Source: Tenacibaculum soleae
Lineage (GTDB): Bacteria; Bacteroidota; Bacteroidia; Flavobacteriales; Flavobacteriaceae
Assembly: GCF_001693415.1 (NCBI RefSeq)
Contig: NZ_MAKX01000001.1
Span: 300 to 64,299, forward strand
DNA length: 64,000 nucleotides
Reading direction: 5' to 3'
Shown here: piece by piece, positions 15,731 through 33,516 of the stretch
Layout of the letters: each line of letters starts with the position of its first letter
Position numbering within the stretch: position 1 is the first letter of the stretch
Position numbers and translations under genes: made by a program
Notes under the pieces: generated by a model
The model's database searches: none
The model's input: the letters and a program-made list of their open reading frames with translations, nothing else
What the model was told of the DNA's origin: nothing

Positions 15731-18700
15731 TTAAAAAGAAAGATTAAATCCGAAAGAAATAATTTTTGGTATTGGTTGTGAATATGAACTACCAAAAGTT
15801 TCTGGGTCAAAATATCCGTCATAATCTGTTCCGAAAACAAATAGATTTCTCCCTTCAAGGTTAAAACTTAACCTTGAAACATTCATACTTTCTAGATATT
15901 TACTTGGCACACTATATCCAAACTTTATACTATTAACTCTTATGTATGATATTTTATCTATCCATATATCTAAGTCTCTGAATGTATTACCTGTATCATA
16001 TGTGTGATACCAATTATACACTAAGTCTGTTTCAAACCCAGGAGTTGTACTACCAATCAATGCAGGGTAATTTCCTGTACCTGCTTTTAAAATTTCTTTA
16101 TTATAATTATAAGTAGGACTTACTTGTGTAGGATGGTATGTTGGTGTTCTTTTTACAGTTTGATTTATATTAAAATTAGTTGCTATGCTTAGACTAAAAT
16201 CTTTGTATTGAAACTTATTAATAAAACCTCCACTAAATTCAGGATCTGCATTACCTACATAAGTATATAAATTTCTATGCTCTTCTCTTGTTAATTGATT
16301 TCCATCAACCCCTTCTGATAAGTTATAAAAATCTACCGCTGTTACTTTATTACCATCTTTCCAAAATAATGGCAACCCATTGCTATCTAAACCTGCTGTT
16401 TTTATAGCGAAAACTCCGTTAACTCCATATCCTAATAAAGAAGGTTTAAAATCGTTCTCTTTTATTTGAATTTTCTCTACTCTATTCTTATTGTGTGATA
16501 TATTAAAACTTGTACTCCACTTAAAATCATCATTTACTATATTTTTAGTATTAATAGCCAACTCAACACCTTTATTACTTAATGTTGCCCAATTTGTGTT
16601 AATAAAATTGAAACCAGATTCTAGAGGTATTGCTTGTAATCCAATTAAATCAGAACTTTTACGATAATAATAATCTGCTGATACATATACTCTATTATTA
16701 AACAAACCTAAGTCAAACCCTACATTTGATGAGATTGTTTTTTCCCAACGTAAATCTTTATTAGGAGCAGATATTACATTAATTCCTTGTTCAGAATTTC
16801 CTGGTAAAATAGTAACATCTTTATACTCTCCAACCACAAAAGGAGATGTTGATTTATCTATGTTTCCTTGTACACCATATGAACCTCTTATTTTAAAGTC
16901 TTTTATTGCCTCTATATCAAAAAAGCTTTCTTTAGCGACATTCCAAGAACCTGCAACTGACCATAAAGGTAAGTATCTAAACTCTGGGTTTACTCCAAAT
17001 AAGTTTGAACCATCATATCGTAAGCTTCCAAATATTGTATATTTTCTATCGTAAGTATACGAAGCTGTTCCAAAGAAAGATGCATATGCATTTTCGTTAA
17101 TTGTTTTTTTGTAAGGATTAAACAATTCATTTTCTAAAGCTCTTTCATCTGTTATTGGTATGGTTCTTAAAGTATTGCTGTTAAAACCAAACCCTTTTGT
17201 ATGAATTTCTGTACGCTTGTCTTCTCTAAACTCGGTACCTAGCATCACATCAACTTCATGAATATTATTTATAGAAGTGTTGTAATTTAAAGTAGTTTTC
17301 CAATTGTATTGAAAAGCATCACTATTCCAATTTTGATTTATACCTCCTTGTGGCATAAAAAAAGCGTCGTTCCCATCTTCATCTTGATATCTAGACCCAA
17401 ATCTGTATTTTCTAGTATAGTAACTGTTTTTACCTCCAAACTTTTCAGTTTGATCAAAATCGAACTGCATACCTAACTGCGTGTACAATCTTAAAGTCTT
17501 ATCAAATTTATATGTAAGGTCAATTATTGGTTTAATAGAATACGCTGTAAGCTCTTGATTTGTATTCTGTCTTTCTTCTAAAGGATTATAATTTAAATTT
17601 AAATCTGACCTTTCAATTAAATCTGGATCATAATTATAACTACCATCAGTATTATATGGTGTAAAATAAGGGTTTACTCTTCTTGAATAATTTGCTGGGT
17701 TTGTGTATGCATCAATCCCTGTAATATATGATGTGCTTTTATTTCTACTTGCAAAAACTGATACTCCAATATTTAGCTTATCATTTACATCATAGTCATT
17801 TTTAAAAGTAAGGTTATACCTATTTAATCCAGTTCCTTTTGTTGTTCCTTCTTCATCAAAATACCCTAAAGAAAAATAATACCTTGATTTTTCACTTCCT
17901 CCTGAAAGTGTTAACCCATATTGTTGATTTATTGCTGCTTGATACAATTCATTACCCCAATTAGTATTTTTATTTCTTAAATTATTAATAGCATTTTGGG
18001 CTAATGGGTTTATACTTGAAAAACCATTGTTTTGAAAGTTATCATATTCTCCGAAAGCTTGTAAAATACGAGACACTCCACCTCTTTCGCTTTGATATAC
18101 TAAATCTGACCTACTTGCTAAACCTAATTCAAAGTCTACTTTTTCAGAAGCATTCATTAGGTTTAATTTATCAAAATTAGGTCTTAAAGTTAAAAAAGAA
18201 CTTGCGTTAAAATTAATTCTCATTTCGCCTTTTTTACCTTTTTTTGTAGTAATTACAATTACTCCATTAGCTGCTCTAGCTCCATAAATAGATGTTGCTG
18301 AAGCATCTTTTAAAACTGTAATTTCTTCTATATCATCAGGATTTATACCTGCTATAGGGTACGATCTTAAGTTATCAATATTATCTTTATCTGTAAAATC
18401 TTTAGGTATATCATTTCCTTGTAAAGGAATTCCATCTAAAACCCACAAAGGATCTGAAGAACCATTTAAGGTTGAAGTACCTCTAATTTGAATTTTTGCT
18501 GGAGCTCCAGGTGCGCCACTAGTTGGTTGAACAAGTACTCCTGAAATTTCTCCAGAAAGCATTTGATCAATATTAGCCGTACCAGCACGTTTAACATCAT
18601 CTGTTTTTATTTTAACATAAGAGGAAGTCACTTTTCTTTCTTCAATCTTTTGATATCCTGTTACAATTACTTCTCCTAAAATTTCTTCCTTTTCTTCTAA

Positions 18701-30837: not shown

Positions 30838-32346
30838 ATGTCGTTTCCATTTATAAATTCTATCATTTCTTGGTTTTTAAAAAAGCGCAAACATCAAGTA
30901 GAATTGTTTTTAAAATATCCAATTGATGTACAAAACGAGTTATTACAAAAATTATTAAATACTGCAAAAAAAACTGAATTTGGTAAACTGTATAGCTTTT
31001 CGTCAATAAAAAACTATACTGATTTTGCCGCCAATGTTCCTATTCAAAAATATGAAAGCATAGAGCCTCTAATTGAACGCTGCAGAAAAGGTGAACAAAA
31101 TTTATTTTGGCCCACCCCTATTCATTGGTTTGCAAAAAGTAGCGGAACAACAAATGCTAAAAGTAAGTTTATACCTGTTAGTGATGAAGCGCTAGAAGAC
31201 TGCCACTTAAAAGCAGGAAAAGACATGCTGTGTTTATACATCAACAACAACGAAGAAACACAAATGTTTACAGGTAAAGGATTAAAACTAGGCGGTAGTA
31301 CGGCTATTTACGAAGATAATAATTCTTATTTCGGGGATTTATCGGCAATTATTACCGAAAACTTACCTTTTTGGGCAGATTTTAGCTCTGCTCCTAGCTC
31401 TGAAGTTTCTTTAATGGCTGAATGGGAAACTAAAATGGAAGCTATCATTGATGAGACTATTAACGAAAACATTACGAGTTTAGTTGGTGTTCCTAGCTGG
31501 ATGTTAGTTTTATTAAATCGTGTTTTAGAAAAAACAGGGAAAAATAATATTTTAGAAGTATGGCCTAATTTAGAAGTCTATTTTCATGGTGGCGTAAATT
31601 TTAATCCATATCGAGAGCAATATAAAAAGCTGATCCCTAAAGAAAGTTTCAAATATTATGAAACCTACAACGCATCAGAAGGTTTTTTTGGTATTCAAGA
31701 CAGAAATAATTCTAACGAAATGTTACTCATGTTAGATTATGGTATCTTTTATGAATTTATCCCAATGAGTGATTATAATGGTGAAAACTCAGTTGCTATA
31801 CAGCTTTCTGAAGTAAAAAAAGGAATTAATTACGCTGTAATAATTACAACTAACGGTGGTTTATGGCGTTATTTAATAGGTGATACTGTTAAATTTACAT
31901 CAACAAATCCATATCGTATAAAAATTACTGGACGCACCAAACATCATATTAATGTTTTTGGCGAAGAATTAATTATCGAGAATGCTGAAAAAGCATTGAA
32001 AATTGCTAGCCAAAAAACCAACGCTAATATTAAAGATTATACTGTTGGCCCTGTTTTTATGAATGACAAAAAAAGTGGTGCGCATGAGTGGATTATTGAA
32101 TTTAGTAATCCACCAAAAAATATTACTTATTTTACTCAATTATTAGACGATGCTTTAAAAACTATTAATTCTGATTATGAAGCTAAACGGTATAACAATA
32201 TGACTTTAGCGATGCCTATAATACACGAAGCTCGTAAAAATTTATTTTATGATTGGTTAAGAGAAAAAGGTAAATTAGGTGGGCAACATAAAGTTCCTCG
32301 TTTATCTAACAAACGTGATTTTGTTGAAGAACTACTAAAATTGTAA
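30838..32346 (+). CDS. GH3-family adenylate-forming enzyme
   Basis: Member of the GH3 family, named from plant auxin-response enzymes that adenylate a carboxylic acid and pass it to an amine or thiol. The 502 residues show the ATP-binding motif KSSGTTNAKSKFIP near 100-115, YNASEGFFGIQ near 285, and GRTKHHINVFGEEL near 365 with the C-terminal cap domain. The bacterial substrate is unknown. The regulator gene begins 3 bases behind its stop, so the two are co-transcribed. Confidence 0.9.
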   Translation: MSFPFINSIISWFLKKRKHQVELFLKYPIDVQNELLQKLLNTAKKTEFGKLYSFSSIKNYTDFAANVPIQKYESIEPLIERCRKGEQNLFWPTPIHWFAKSSGTTNAKSKFIPVSDEALEDCHLKAGKDMLCLYINNNEETQMFTGKGLKLGGSTAIYEDNNSYFGDLSAIITENLPFWADFSSAPSSEVSLMAEWETKMEAIIDETINENITSLVGVPSWMLVLLNRVLEKTGKNNILEVWPNLEVYFHGGVNFNPYREQYKKLIPKESFKYYETYNASEGFFGIQDRNNSNEMLLMLDYGIFYEFIPMSDYNGENSVAIQLSEVKKGINYAVIITTNGGLWRYLIGDTVKFTSTNPYRIKITGRTKHHINVFGEELIIENAEKALKIASQKTNANIKDYTVGPVFMNDKKSGAHEWIIEFSNPPKNITYFTQLLDDALKTINSDYEAKRYNNMTLAMPIIHEARKNLFYDWLREKGKLGGQHKVPRLSNKRDFVEELLKL

Positions 32347-32349
32347 TTT

Positions 32350-32910
32350 ATGAATTCTTTCTTAGAACAAAATGCTTCTTTGCTATTAGAAGACCCTGAA
32401 TTAGCTGCTGCTTTTAAAAATACTGTGAAGTTTGAGAAATACCCAAAACATCACATTTTACATGAAGCAGGCAAAATTTGCAATTACATGTATATAATTA
32501 CATCTGGTATTGCTCGTGTATTTTATTACAAAGAAGATAAAGATGTTACCGTTCATATTTCAGCAGAGCAAGAAACTATTACAGCTATAGATAGTTTTAT
32601 TCAACGTAAAAAAAGTAAATATACTATTGAAGCCCTAGAAGATTTAGAGGTTTTAAAAATTGAGCATGCCGATTTAGAAAACCTATTTGAAATAAACCCA
32701 AAATTTGAACGTTTCGGCAGATTATTTTTACAACAAATTTATGTTGAATTAGTAGAACGAATTGATGACTTACAGCTACACACTACACAAGAACGTTATC
32801 AAATTTTATTAGATAAAAAACCGCATCTTTTTAAGAGAATTTCAGCAAAGCACATTGCTTCTTTTTTAGGTATGACTCCGGAAACTTTTAGTAGAATTAG
32901 AGCAAAGTAG
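32350..32910 (+). CDS. Crp/Fnr-family regulator with FNR-type recognition helix
   Basis: Transcription factor of 186 residues: cyclic-nucleotide-binding-like beta barrel (25-115), dimer helix, and a short winged HTH at the C-terminus. The recognition helix reads E178-T-F-S-R182, the same E-T-x-S-R pattern as E. coli FNR, which reads TTGAT, and unlike CRP (E-T-x-G-R). It has only one Cys (Cys44) and no N-terminal Cys cluster, so an FNR-like Fe-S sensor is absent and the signal is unknown. The chain ends just after the recognition helix. It is translationally tied to the GH3 gene and an FNR-type box begins 3 bases after its stop. Confidence 0.88.
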   Translation: MNSFLEQNASLLLEDPELAAAFKNTVKFEKYPKHHILHEAGKICNYMYIITSGIARVFYYKEDKDVTVHISAEQETITAIDSFIQRKKSKYTIEALEDLEVLKIEHADLENLFEINPKFERFGRLFLQQIYVELVERIDDLQLHTTQERYQILLDKKPHLFKRISAKHIASFLGMTPETFSRIRAK

Positions 32911-32912
32911 TT

Positions 32913-32932
32913 TTCTTGATAATTGTCAAGAA
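32913..32932. promoter_or_regulatory. FNR-type operator
   Basis: TTCTTGATAATTGTCAAGAA is palindromic except for one pair. Its core TTGAT-AATT-GTCAA matches the FNR box TTGATnnnnATCAA at 9 of 10 bases. Centre at 32922.5, about 41-42 bases before the predicted transcription start of the next gene, the class II activator position. Confidence 0.6.
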
Positions 32933-32951
32933 TTTATAGCAAACTATAAAA

Positions 32952-32959
32952 TACCTTTG
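32952..32959 (+). promoter_or_regulatory. -7 element of the Coq4-like gene
   Basis: TACCTTTG, 17 bases before the ATG at 32977. No TTG occurs 19-21 bases upstream, which fits a promoter needing the activator bound at 32913-32932. Confidence 0.5.
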
Positions 32960-32976
32960 TCTTATAATCTACAATA

Positions 32977-33516
32977 ATGATAATAGCAAACGCTTTACAA
33001 CAGTTTTATAAAGAAAATAATTTTGCAAAAGATGGTGGTGAAAGTGAAGACACTTTTAACTTAAAATTTAAACTATTCACTTTAAAACTCCCTAATTCTC
33101 AATTCAGAAAAAAAGTCGTTCACATTCATGATATTCAACATATTTTATATAATTGTGATACGACATGGAAAGGAGAAGCCTTTATTGCGGGTTGGGAAAT
33201 ATCAACAGGTATATGGAAACATTTCCCCATAGGTTTTATGAGTTTATGGGCAATGGGATTTTCTTTATTAAACTACCCTAAAGATGTTTTTAAAGGCTAT
33301 AAAGCGGGTATAAACACAATTGGTATAGTAGATTTAAAACTTAGTAAACAAGAATTATTAGTATTATCAATTGATCATTTAAAAAAGAAAATTCAAAAGA
33401 AAAAAAATATTAAAATGGATATTTTACAATATCTTATTTTTACTTTTTGGATACTAGTTAGTCTTATTGTTTTTTTATTTCCTTTTAGTACATTACCTTT
33501 TTTTCTATTATTCTAA
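32977..33516 (+). CDS. Coq4-like protein
   Basis: The 179 residues contain HDIQH (51-55), then exactly 11 residues and Glu67, matching the HDxxHx11E metal-binding signature of Coq4, a protein of ubiquinone synthesis. Flavobacteria normally use menaquinone, so the bacterial role is probably different. Beyond the motif lies a GFMSLWAMGFSL-type helix and a C-terminal transmembrane segment (about 150-179) that should tie it to the membrane. It follows the FNR-like regulator and an FNR-type box. Its last 32 bases overlap the converging gene at 33485. Confidence 0.7.
   Translation: MIIANALQQFYKENNFAKDGGESEDTFNLKFKLFTLKLPNSQFRKKVVHIHDIQHILYNCDTTWKGEAFIAGWEISTGIWKHFPIGFMSLWAMGFSLLNYPKDVFKGYKAGINTIGIVDLKLSKQELLVLSIDHLKKKIQKKKNIKMDILQYLIFTFWILVSLIVFLFPFSTLPFFLLF

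Follow-up and report, generated by a model that had tools for sequence, protein, structure and literature searches.

A conserved FNR-type box between a Crp/Fnr regulator gene and a COQ4-like gene suggests a regulator-operator-target cassette in Tenacibaculum-type genomes

Results

Gene order at the locus

We analysed a 64-kb stretch of DNA (hereafter the window) from a Tenacibaculum-type genome of 3.0 Mb in 44 contigs. Three plus-strand genes lie there in series, encoding a GH3-family protein, a 186-aa Crp/Fnr regulator and a 179-aa COQ4-like protein (hereafter coq4); their coordinates and those of the features between them are given in Table 1. Among named records, T. ovolyticum DSM 18103 is the closest, with 96% identity for the regulator and 86% for coq4. 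The top NCBIfam match of the GH3 gene was OlsH_GH3_orni, with a score (431.9 bits) below the cut-off of 620. Because the regulator gene starts 3 nt past the GH3 stop codon, we infer that the two are probably co-transcribed, and a same-strand GH3 match was present at 36 out of 37 regulator ortholog loci. No operator was seen in the 140 nt read before the GH3 gene.

Table 1. Features of the regulator-coq4 locus (positions in the window)
Feature	Position	Strand	Basis
GH3-family amide synthetase-like gene	30838..32346	+	ORF; Pfam GH3, 3.2e-69
Crp/Fnr-type regulator, 186 aa	32350..32910	+	ORF; Pfam cNMP_binding; ortholog in 37/166 genus genomes
Recognition-helix codons E178-T-F-S-R182	32881..32895	+	E178 and R182 invariant, S181 in 29/30 orthologs
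Putative FNR-type operator, core TTGATAATTGTCAA at 32916-32929	32913..32932		Conserved with its spacing; no binding data
-7 promoter box TACCTTTG	32952..32959	+	22 nt past operator core; no -33 element
Predicted transcription start, A (not mapped)	32964	+	A in 38/40 aligned promoters; column free in search pattern
COQ4-like gene, 179 aa, long C-terminal hydrophobic helix	32977..33516	+	Zinc motif; nearest folds 3msq, 6e12

The regulator

The regulator met both tests for the Crp/Fnr superfamily: it matched Pfam cNMP_binding (5e-14; 52.5 bits against a cut-off of 27.5), and its structural model (pLDDT 83.7) aligned with full-length CRP structures, the nearest solved fold being 3dn7 from Cytophaga, followed by CRP. 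A preliminary description of this DNA had called the regulator short. A length of 186 aa is indeed short next to FNR, but it is ordinary beside the genome's other Crp/Fnr genes (17 genes in total, 16 besides the regulator; the 15 that were readable encode 177-199 aa), and that part of the description was not upheld. The FNR recognition pattern E-T-x-S-R that it placed at residues 178-182 is present as E178-T-F-S-R182; with this E-x-x-S-R helix and a box matching at 9/10 bases, the criteria for FNR-type recognition were met. The description was also right that the protein lacks an Fe-S cysteine cluster: the regulator of the window has a single cysteine, and only one, C44, is invariant across 30 aligned orthologs, so no Fe-S set is available. 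An FNR-like oxygen sensor was accordingly rejected, the cluster-cysteine test not being met.

At the position corresponding to residue 180 of CRP lies what we take, from a comparison by hand with the CRP helix, to be Pro177. The criterion for cAMP-CRP (Arg at position 180 together with a TGTGA half-site) was not met, given Pro177 and a TTGA half-site; nor were the criteria for HcpR2, given Glu at position 181, a TTGAy site and a COQ4-like target. According to the accessible part of Rodionov et al. 2005 (PMC1274295), Glu at 181 and Ser or Pro at 180 go with TTGAC/GTCAA-type sites, a rule that the regulator's helix, T-P-E-T-F-S-R, fits.

The COQ4-like target

The motif HDxxH-x11-E was invariant in 19 out of 19 members of the target family, which meets the test for the COQ4 zinc motif (HD-xx-H-(x)11-E in the accessible part of PMC7615680, which also reports C1 decarboxylation by a tetrapod-ancestor COQ4). 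The COQ4 homologues 3msq and 6e12 were the top Foldseek rows for the predicted structure (pLDDT 92.8), with probabilities of 1.00 and 0.98, E values of 0.02-0.09 and a TM score of about 0.4. A second fold comparison gave Z scores of 8.1 and 9.1 for 3msq and 6e12 over 119-121 residues, the next row scoring 2.9, and Z scores below about 13 can arise by chance for helical bundles. On the model, then, the COQ4-fold test was met, with weak E values. The Pfam Coq4 test (PF05019) was not met: the target scored 11.6 bits against a cut-off of 22.9 (E 0.17), and 13 out of 19 members gave a sub-threshold match, the best at E 0.039. No match above the cut-off was found for the target in Pfam or NCBIfam, and a profile search of PDB sequences returned none. 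We call the target COQ4-like because its score stays below the Pfam cut-off; the earlier assignment as Coq4-like stands as far as the zinc motif and the nearest fold go and fails at the Pfam threshold. MenD is present in the genome and no COQ7 match was found in it (other ubi genes were outside the search).

The box and the promoter

The 66-nt gap between the regulator and coq4 holds both the box, which starts 2 nt past the regulator stop codon, and the -7 box. The box reads TTCTTGATAATTGTCAAGAA, with nine out of ten pairs complementary, and its core agrees with TTGATnnnnATCAA at nine out of ten fixed bases, the same count as had been reported for this palindrome. The motif TACCTTTG is the sole NAnnTTTG between the two genes. 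A -33 element is usual in Bacteroidota promoters; no TTG occurs in the 28 nt preceding the -7 box, so the coq4 promoter lacks this element, in agreement with the preliminary description.

The box is centred at 32922.5, and when the conserved A at 32964 is taken as the start, the centre falls at -41.5, the class II position for FNR and CRP. Class II criteria (a site near -41.5 and no need for an upstream element) were met with a start that is predicted, not mapped. The distance of about 41.5 nt proposed earlier recurred in the relatives, an A lying 41.5 nt after the centre in 38 out of 40 promoters. In the same alignment, TTTC before the core, the AATT centre and the A at +1 stood out, and most spacer columns were near background. 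The alignment was drawn from 41 loci; L125, with neither regulator nor site, was left outside the counts (n = 40, window included), and where a locus had several matches, the one with the AATT centre was taken. Columns 0-3, 10-13, 36, 37 and 40-42, and partly 4 and 9, are set by the search pattern, and their invariance is no evidence.

On its own, the match is weak: the 64-kb window holds 16 such matches against 7.7 expected, with one out of 100 shuffles giving as many. It is the comparative evidence that carries the box. At the window's own density, about 0.014 matches would be expected in the regulator-coq4 gap. Across the 3.0-Mb genome, the sequence TTGAYAATTRTCAA has a single location. A large regulon was rejected on the single occurrence of the exact core in the window's genome; relaxed cores are not ruled out. 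Elsewhere in the window, a perfect 10/10 FNR-type match, TTGATTTCCATCAA, lies at 16295-16308.

Conservation of the box with coq4

Orthologs of the regulator, defined as matches with E values up to 1e-50, were found in 37 out of 166 genomes of the genus. At 28 of the 37 loci, including the window, the box follows the regulator stop and always lies 22 nt before TAnnTTT[GA]; the distance from stop to core was 4-10 nt in 27 of these loci and 53 nt in one. At the other nine, coq4 is not adjacent and lies about 0.9-13.5 kb off, carrying the box and the 22-nt spacing upstream. The expectation that relatives with both genes would keep box and spacing was therefore met in 36 out of 36 genus genomes, always upstream of coq4 and at 22 nt (in G002 the box was found beyond the 100-nt upstream limit used for other coq4 genes). 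Since the box precedes coq4 in all 36 two-gene genomes, it belongs to the coq4 promoter.

Across the 166 genomes, 36 have both genes, one the regulator alone, three coq4 alone and 126 neither. Fisher's test gave 9e-32, a value that overstates the link because the genomes are related. Two of the coq4-only genomes, G096 and G104, had no box in the 100 nt upstream of the gene; the third, G163, has the box with no regulator found, in an assembly that is 70% complete. In other genera of the family, none of the seven coq4 genes read had a box in the 140 nt upstream, and the nine boxless coq4 genomes yielded no Crp match better than E 1e-28 (three of their assemblies are 77-88% complete).

Among 56 named loci, 22 had a regulator ortholog (at least 47%) within 3 kb, and all 22 had the box and the spacing; in seven more the box was present but the stretch contained no regulator, and 27 lacked both (among them L208, with a remote Crp close by). 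The sole outlier was a distant pair, L225 (Crp 47%, coq4 50%), with the box TTGACATTTGTCAA and a spacing of 22. In a tree of coq4, from which two short, box-bearing rows (L217 and L223) were omitted, the box-bearing genes formed one clade of 27 (support 100/100) plus L225. Because this tree needs two changes, the boxless coq4 genes are mostly a sister group and not the outcome of repeated losses. Independent losses of the box together with the regulator were likewise unsupported, the boxless genes lying on the other side of the tree.

In two genomes the gene after the regulator's box is not coq4. In G021, which yielded no coq4, it has a flavodoxin fold of the quinone-reductase type (Pfam Flavodoxin_2, 1.3e-26); in G116 the regulator and box are likewise followed by a flavodoxin-fold quinone-reductase-type gene, and coq4 lies elsewhere with its own box.

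Some further features of these loci were recorded. A stop codon lies inside the coq4 match, with the upstream box kept, in G116, G061, G134 and G175, that is, in 4 out of 39 coq4 genomes. In one relative, G176, the full motif with its 22-nt spacing recurs 2.4 kb away from the first copy, in front of a DUF3995 gene (minus strand, position 3542 of L235). A flavodoxin-fold quinone-reductase-type gene follows the stop of a regulator ortholog in two genomes (L003 and L071, the latter judged by eye) and, by eye, a TQRHLSR regulator with the site TAGAC-N4-GTCCT in L025 and L029.

The same layout at other Crp/Fnr genes

Counted by hand, the pattern TTGAYN4RTCAA-N22-TANNTTTG has 134 sites in the 166 genomes, against six for the reversed pattern. 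In ten genomes, 22 box sites lay 17-27 nt from TANNTTTG, and for 13 of them the distance was 22 nt exactly, again by hand count. As far as sequence can tell, this class II geometry is a general feature of the genus. Orthologous or coq4 boxes account for 29 of the 134 sites. We read 81 of the other 105 and found 32 boxes at -8 to +16 nt from the stop-codon end of a non-orthologous Crp/Fnr gene (L237-L303 and L169), plus one 118 nt off such a stop. The 81 sites are not a random sample, since a nearby Crp gene was the reason for picking at least three of the first 20 regions; the 24 unread sites are mostly repeats of the same sequence families, and if none adjoins a Crp gene the count becomes 32 out of 105. 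All but one of the 32 box-adjacent proteins (31/32; the exception is L266) have the Glu. The next genes, readable in 31 of the 32 cases, fell into 15 blastp clusters, with members that include OYE, MBL hydrolase, DinB, glyoxalase, nitroreductase, HIUase and NAD(P)-binding proteins.

A motif-free test used 99 paralogs from the order, chosen by protein similarity (the best-listed matches in 59 genomes and 16 others from the window's own genome; relatives among them are not independent) and scored 14-mer palindromes before the first.A..TTTG past the stop. After 27 paralogs without.A..TTTG in the searched stretch had been dropped, 72 were scorable. Perfect 5-4-5 palindromes stood at 22 nt in 25 out of 72, compared with 10 out of 2841 windows at other distances. 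The box TTGAY-N4-RTCAA lay 22 nt before NAnnTTTG for 18 out of 27 E-T-[LF]-S-R proteins and for 0 out of 72 others; nine out of the 27 had no box at 22 nt. In a sample of 39 genes, the box was found in 8 out of 16 with Glu and 0 out of 23 without (p 2e-4). Exceptions to the layout include L345, a protein with a long tail whose perfect palindrome is 47 nt away from the stop, and L011, with a spacing of 21. In those members of the TTGA class that have an offset of -4, the TGA stop codon is itself part of the half-site.

All 13 perfect TTGAT boxes belong to E-T-[LF]-S-R proteins. The other perfect half-sites were TTGAA, TTAAT and CTACC, with two proteins each, and TTAAA, TTAAC, TCAAC, TTACC, AGGAC and ATGAT, with one each. 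Paired with their helices, these read ETxSR-TTGAT, HEFxS-TTGAA, PEFxS-TTAAT, PEYLSE-TTAAA, PNALSR-CTACC, PVQLSR-TTAAC, PTQLSR-TCAAC, PQSLSR-TTACC and RRTLSR-AGGAC; every pair except the first rests on one or two proteins. In these putative pairings, the half-sites differ with the recognition helix.

Several observations fell outside this pattern. Regulators with the helix T-[AP]-Q-A-L-S-R (L014, L018, L028, L030, L086 and kin) carry, at roughly the position where others have a palindrome, a recurring but imperfect GGTTCAT-type element; the next gene at L086 looks desaturase-like by eye. In two S-R-E-T-L-S-R proteins (L339 and L354), which have Arg where CRP has residue 180, the left halves are of the GTGAC type and not TTGAC, a difference that would be in line with the published R180 rule. 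At L240, L241, L243, L247 and L248, class II boxes of the TTGAC-[CT]TA type precede a gene that appears ribB-like by eye and has no Crp directly upstream, possibly a trans-regulated site. At L244, L245, L250 and L251, a recurring class II box precedes a gene of 97-98 aa (MKKLM..W), with a divergent lipoprotein-like gene behind.

Discussion

The earlier observation of box, regulator and promoter geometry is confirmed by these results, and its interpretation is supported; binding, the choice between activation and repression, and the signal are not shown. The comparisons establish, at the level of sequence alone, that the box is conserved, that its geometry is fixed, that it travels with coq4, that it has one exact site and that it matches the code of the regulator's helix. 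We read the locus as a self-contained regulator-operator-target cassette in which one regulator acts as class II activator of coq4, and we give this reading a probability of roughly 0.8, with binding and activation inferred. What speaks against it is that the distribution of the box needs only two gains or losses on the coq4 tree, that G163 has the box with no regulator found, that other Glu-type paralogs of the genome could bind, and that at the regulators of G021 and G116 the box is followed by a gene other than coq4.

In the cassette as we picture it, the regulator would be made from a transcript common to the GH3 gene, and on sensing a small signal its dimer would bind the palindrome just past its own stop codon. 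From -41.5 it would contact RNA polymerase as a class II activator, and coq4 would be switched on from a promoter with a good -7 box and no -33 element. Coq4 is probably the regulator's single target in the genome. The signal may be a quinone-like, aromatic or lipid compound, a guess that we base on the two genomes in which coq4 is not adjacent and a quinone-reductase-type gene with a flavodoxin fold stands behind the same box.

The box could instead be the site of another Crp/Fnr protein, with the neighbouring regulator merely hitch-hiking. Such a paralog could bind, since 9 out of 17 Crp/Fnr genes in the genome share the Glu-type helix; relatives have TTGA-N4-TCAA-type boxes with other centres before genes without an upstream Crp (one ribB-like by eye), and G163 has the box with no regulator found. 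We nonetheless hold this unlikely: regulator and coq4 co-occur across the 166 genomes, in G021 and G116 the box remains at the regulator stop although a gene other than coq4 follows, the exact core stands at a single place in the window's genome, and other Crp/Fnr paralogs have the same own-stop layout.

CRP/FNR proteins can also repress, and a protein bound to a box that abuts the regulator stop could halt read-through, so the regulator might repress coq4 or block read-through transcripts from its own gene. Against this, the -41.5 position, the missing -33 element and the intact -7 box make up an activator geometry, and once the genes are parted the distance of the box is fixed to the -7 box, not to the regulator stop; we see little room for repression. 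An inverted repeat directly past a stop codon also recalls an RNA hairpin, a terminator or attenuator ending the regulator message. Here the evidence runs almost wholly the other way, for no terminator-like site was scored at the palindrome, there is no RNA reason for a fixed 22-nt link to a -7 box, and where coq4 is separate the box stands before coq4 and is absent after the regulator. A terminator was therefore rejected: there was no terminator hit, and the box goes with coq4 and not with the regulator.

Class II promoters of the E. coli FNR type have a TTGAT-N4-ATCAA-type site at -41.5 and a regulator with an E-x-x-S-R helix, both of which the proposed cassette shares. It departs from FNR in that the regulator has no Fe-S cysteine set (one conserved Cys), the promoter is of the Bacteroidota -7 type, and there is apparently one target in place of a global regulon. 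NemR-NemA is a local regulator-enzyme pair of the TetR/MarR kind. Like it, the cassette places one sensor beside one small enzyme gene, and the targets across the Crp/Fnr cassettes seen here include OYE, nitroreductase, glyoxalase and flavodoxin-type genes; unlike it, the regulator is of the Crp/Fnr family and probably an activator, with the operator at its own gene end.

HcpR1 and HcpR2 are, like the regulator described here, FNR-like proteins without Fe-S cysteines, as far as the accessible part of PMC1274295 goes. There, HcpR1 of delta-proteobacteria has the motif wyTTGACnnnnGTCAArw and Ser or Pro at position 180, which parallels P177 of the regulator; HcpR2 has Pro at 181 and a GTAAC-N4-GTTAC site, is often beside its target hcp, and in most Bacteroides has a predicted regulon of hcp only. 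The present target is COQ4-like and not hcp, and in the same part of that paper neither an operator at the regulator stop nor a fixed class II layout over many paralogs is described for HcpR1 or HcpR2. The target shares with COQ4 (PMC7615680, in the part accessible) the zinc motif HD-xx-H-(x)11-E and the nearest solved folds. It differs in falling below the Pfam cut-off, in its long C-terminal hydrophobic helix and in its genomic setting, where MenD is present and COQ7 is not detectable.

There is precedent for FNR-type boxes, for class II sites and for local regulators of the FNR-like kind with a single target. No match was found in the open-licence literature searched for the COQ4-like target or, more importantly, for the own-stop operator layout; this literature yielded no paper that deals with the regulator-coq4 pair or describes a Crp/Fnr regulator whose operator lies at its own stop. 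A survey of the Crp/Fnr DNA-binding domain (PMC12531629) makes no mention of Bacteroid in the accessible part of its main text.

The general own-stop layout, which the preliminary description had not seen, is a larger result than the single pair. We consider it rather probable, short of the confidence we place in the coq4 cassette, that flavobacterial Crp/Fnr regulators often carry a cognate operator at their own gene end, with the -7 box of the following gene at a fixed class II distance, and that in one large class the TGA stop forms part of the half-site. Paralog-rich genomes would thus display a table of helices and operators, and cassettes would spread as regulator-operator-target modules. 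To our knowledge, Crp/Fnr proteins are many in flavobacteria, and their targets and signals are mostly unknown; if the operator does lie at a regulator's own stop, site and target become readable from sequence, and the choice of DNA base by helix residue could be tabulated over many natural regulator-operator pairs. The regulator-coq4 pair itself offers a direct test of COQ4-like function and of its signal in a bacterium that has a menaquinone gene and in which COQ7 was not detected.
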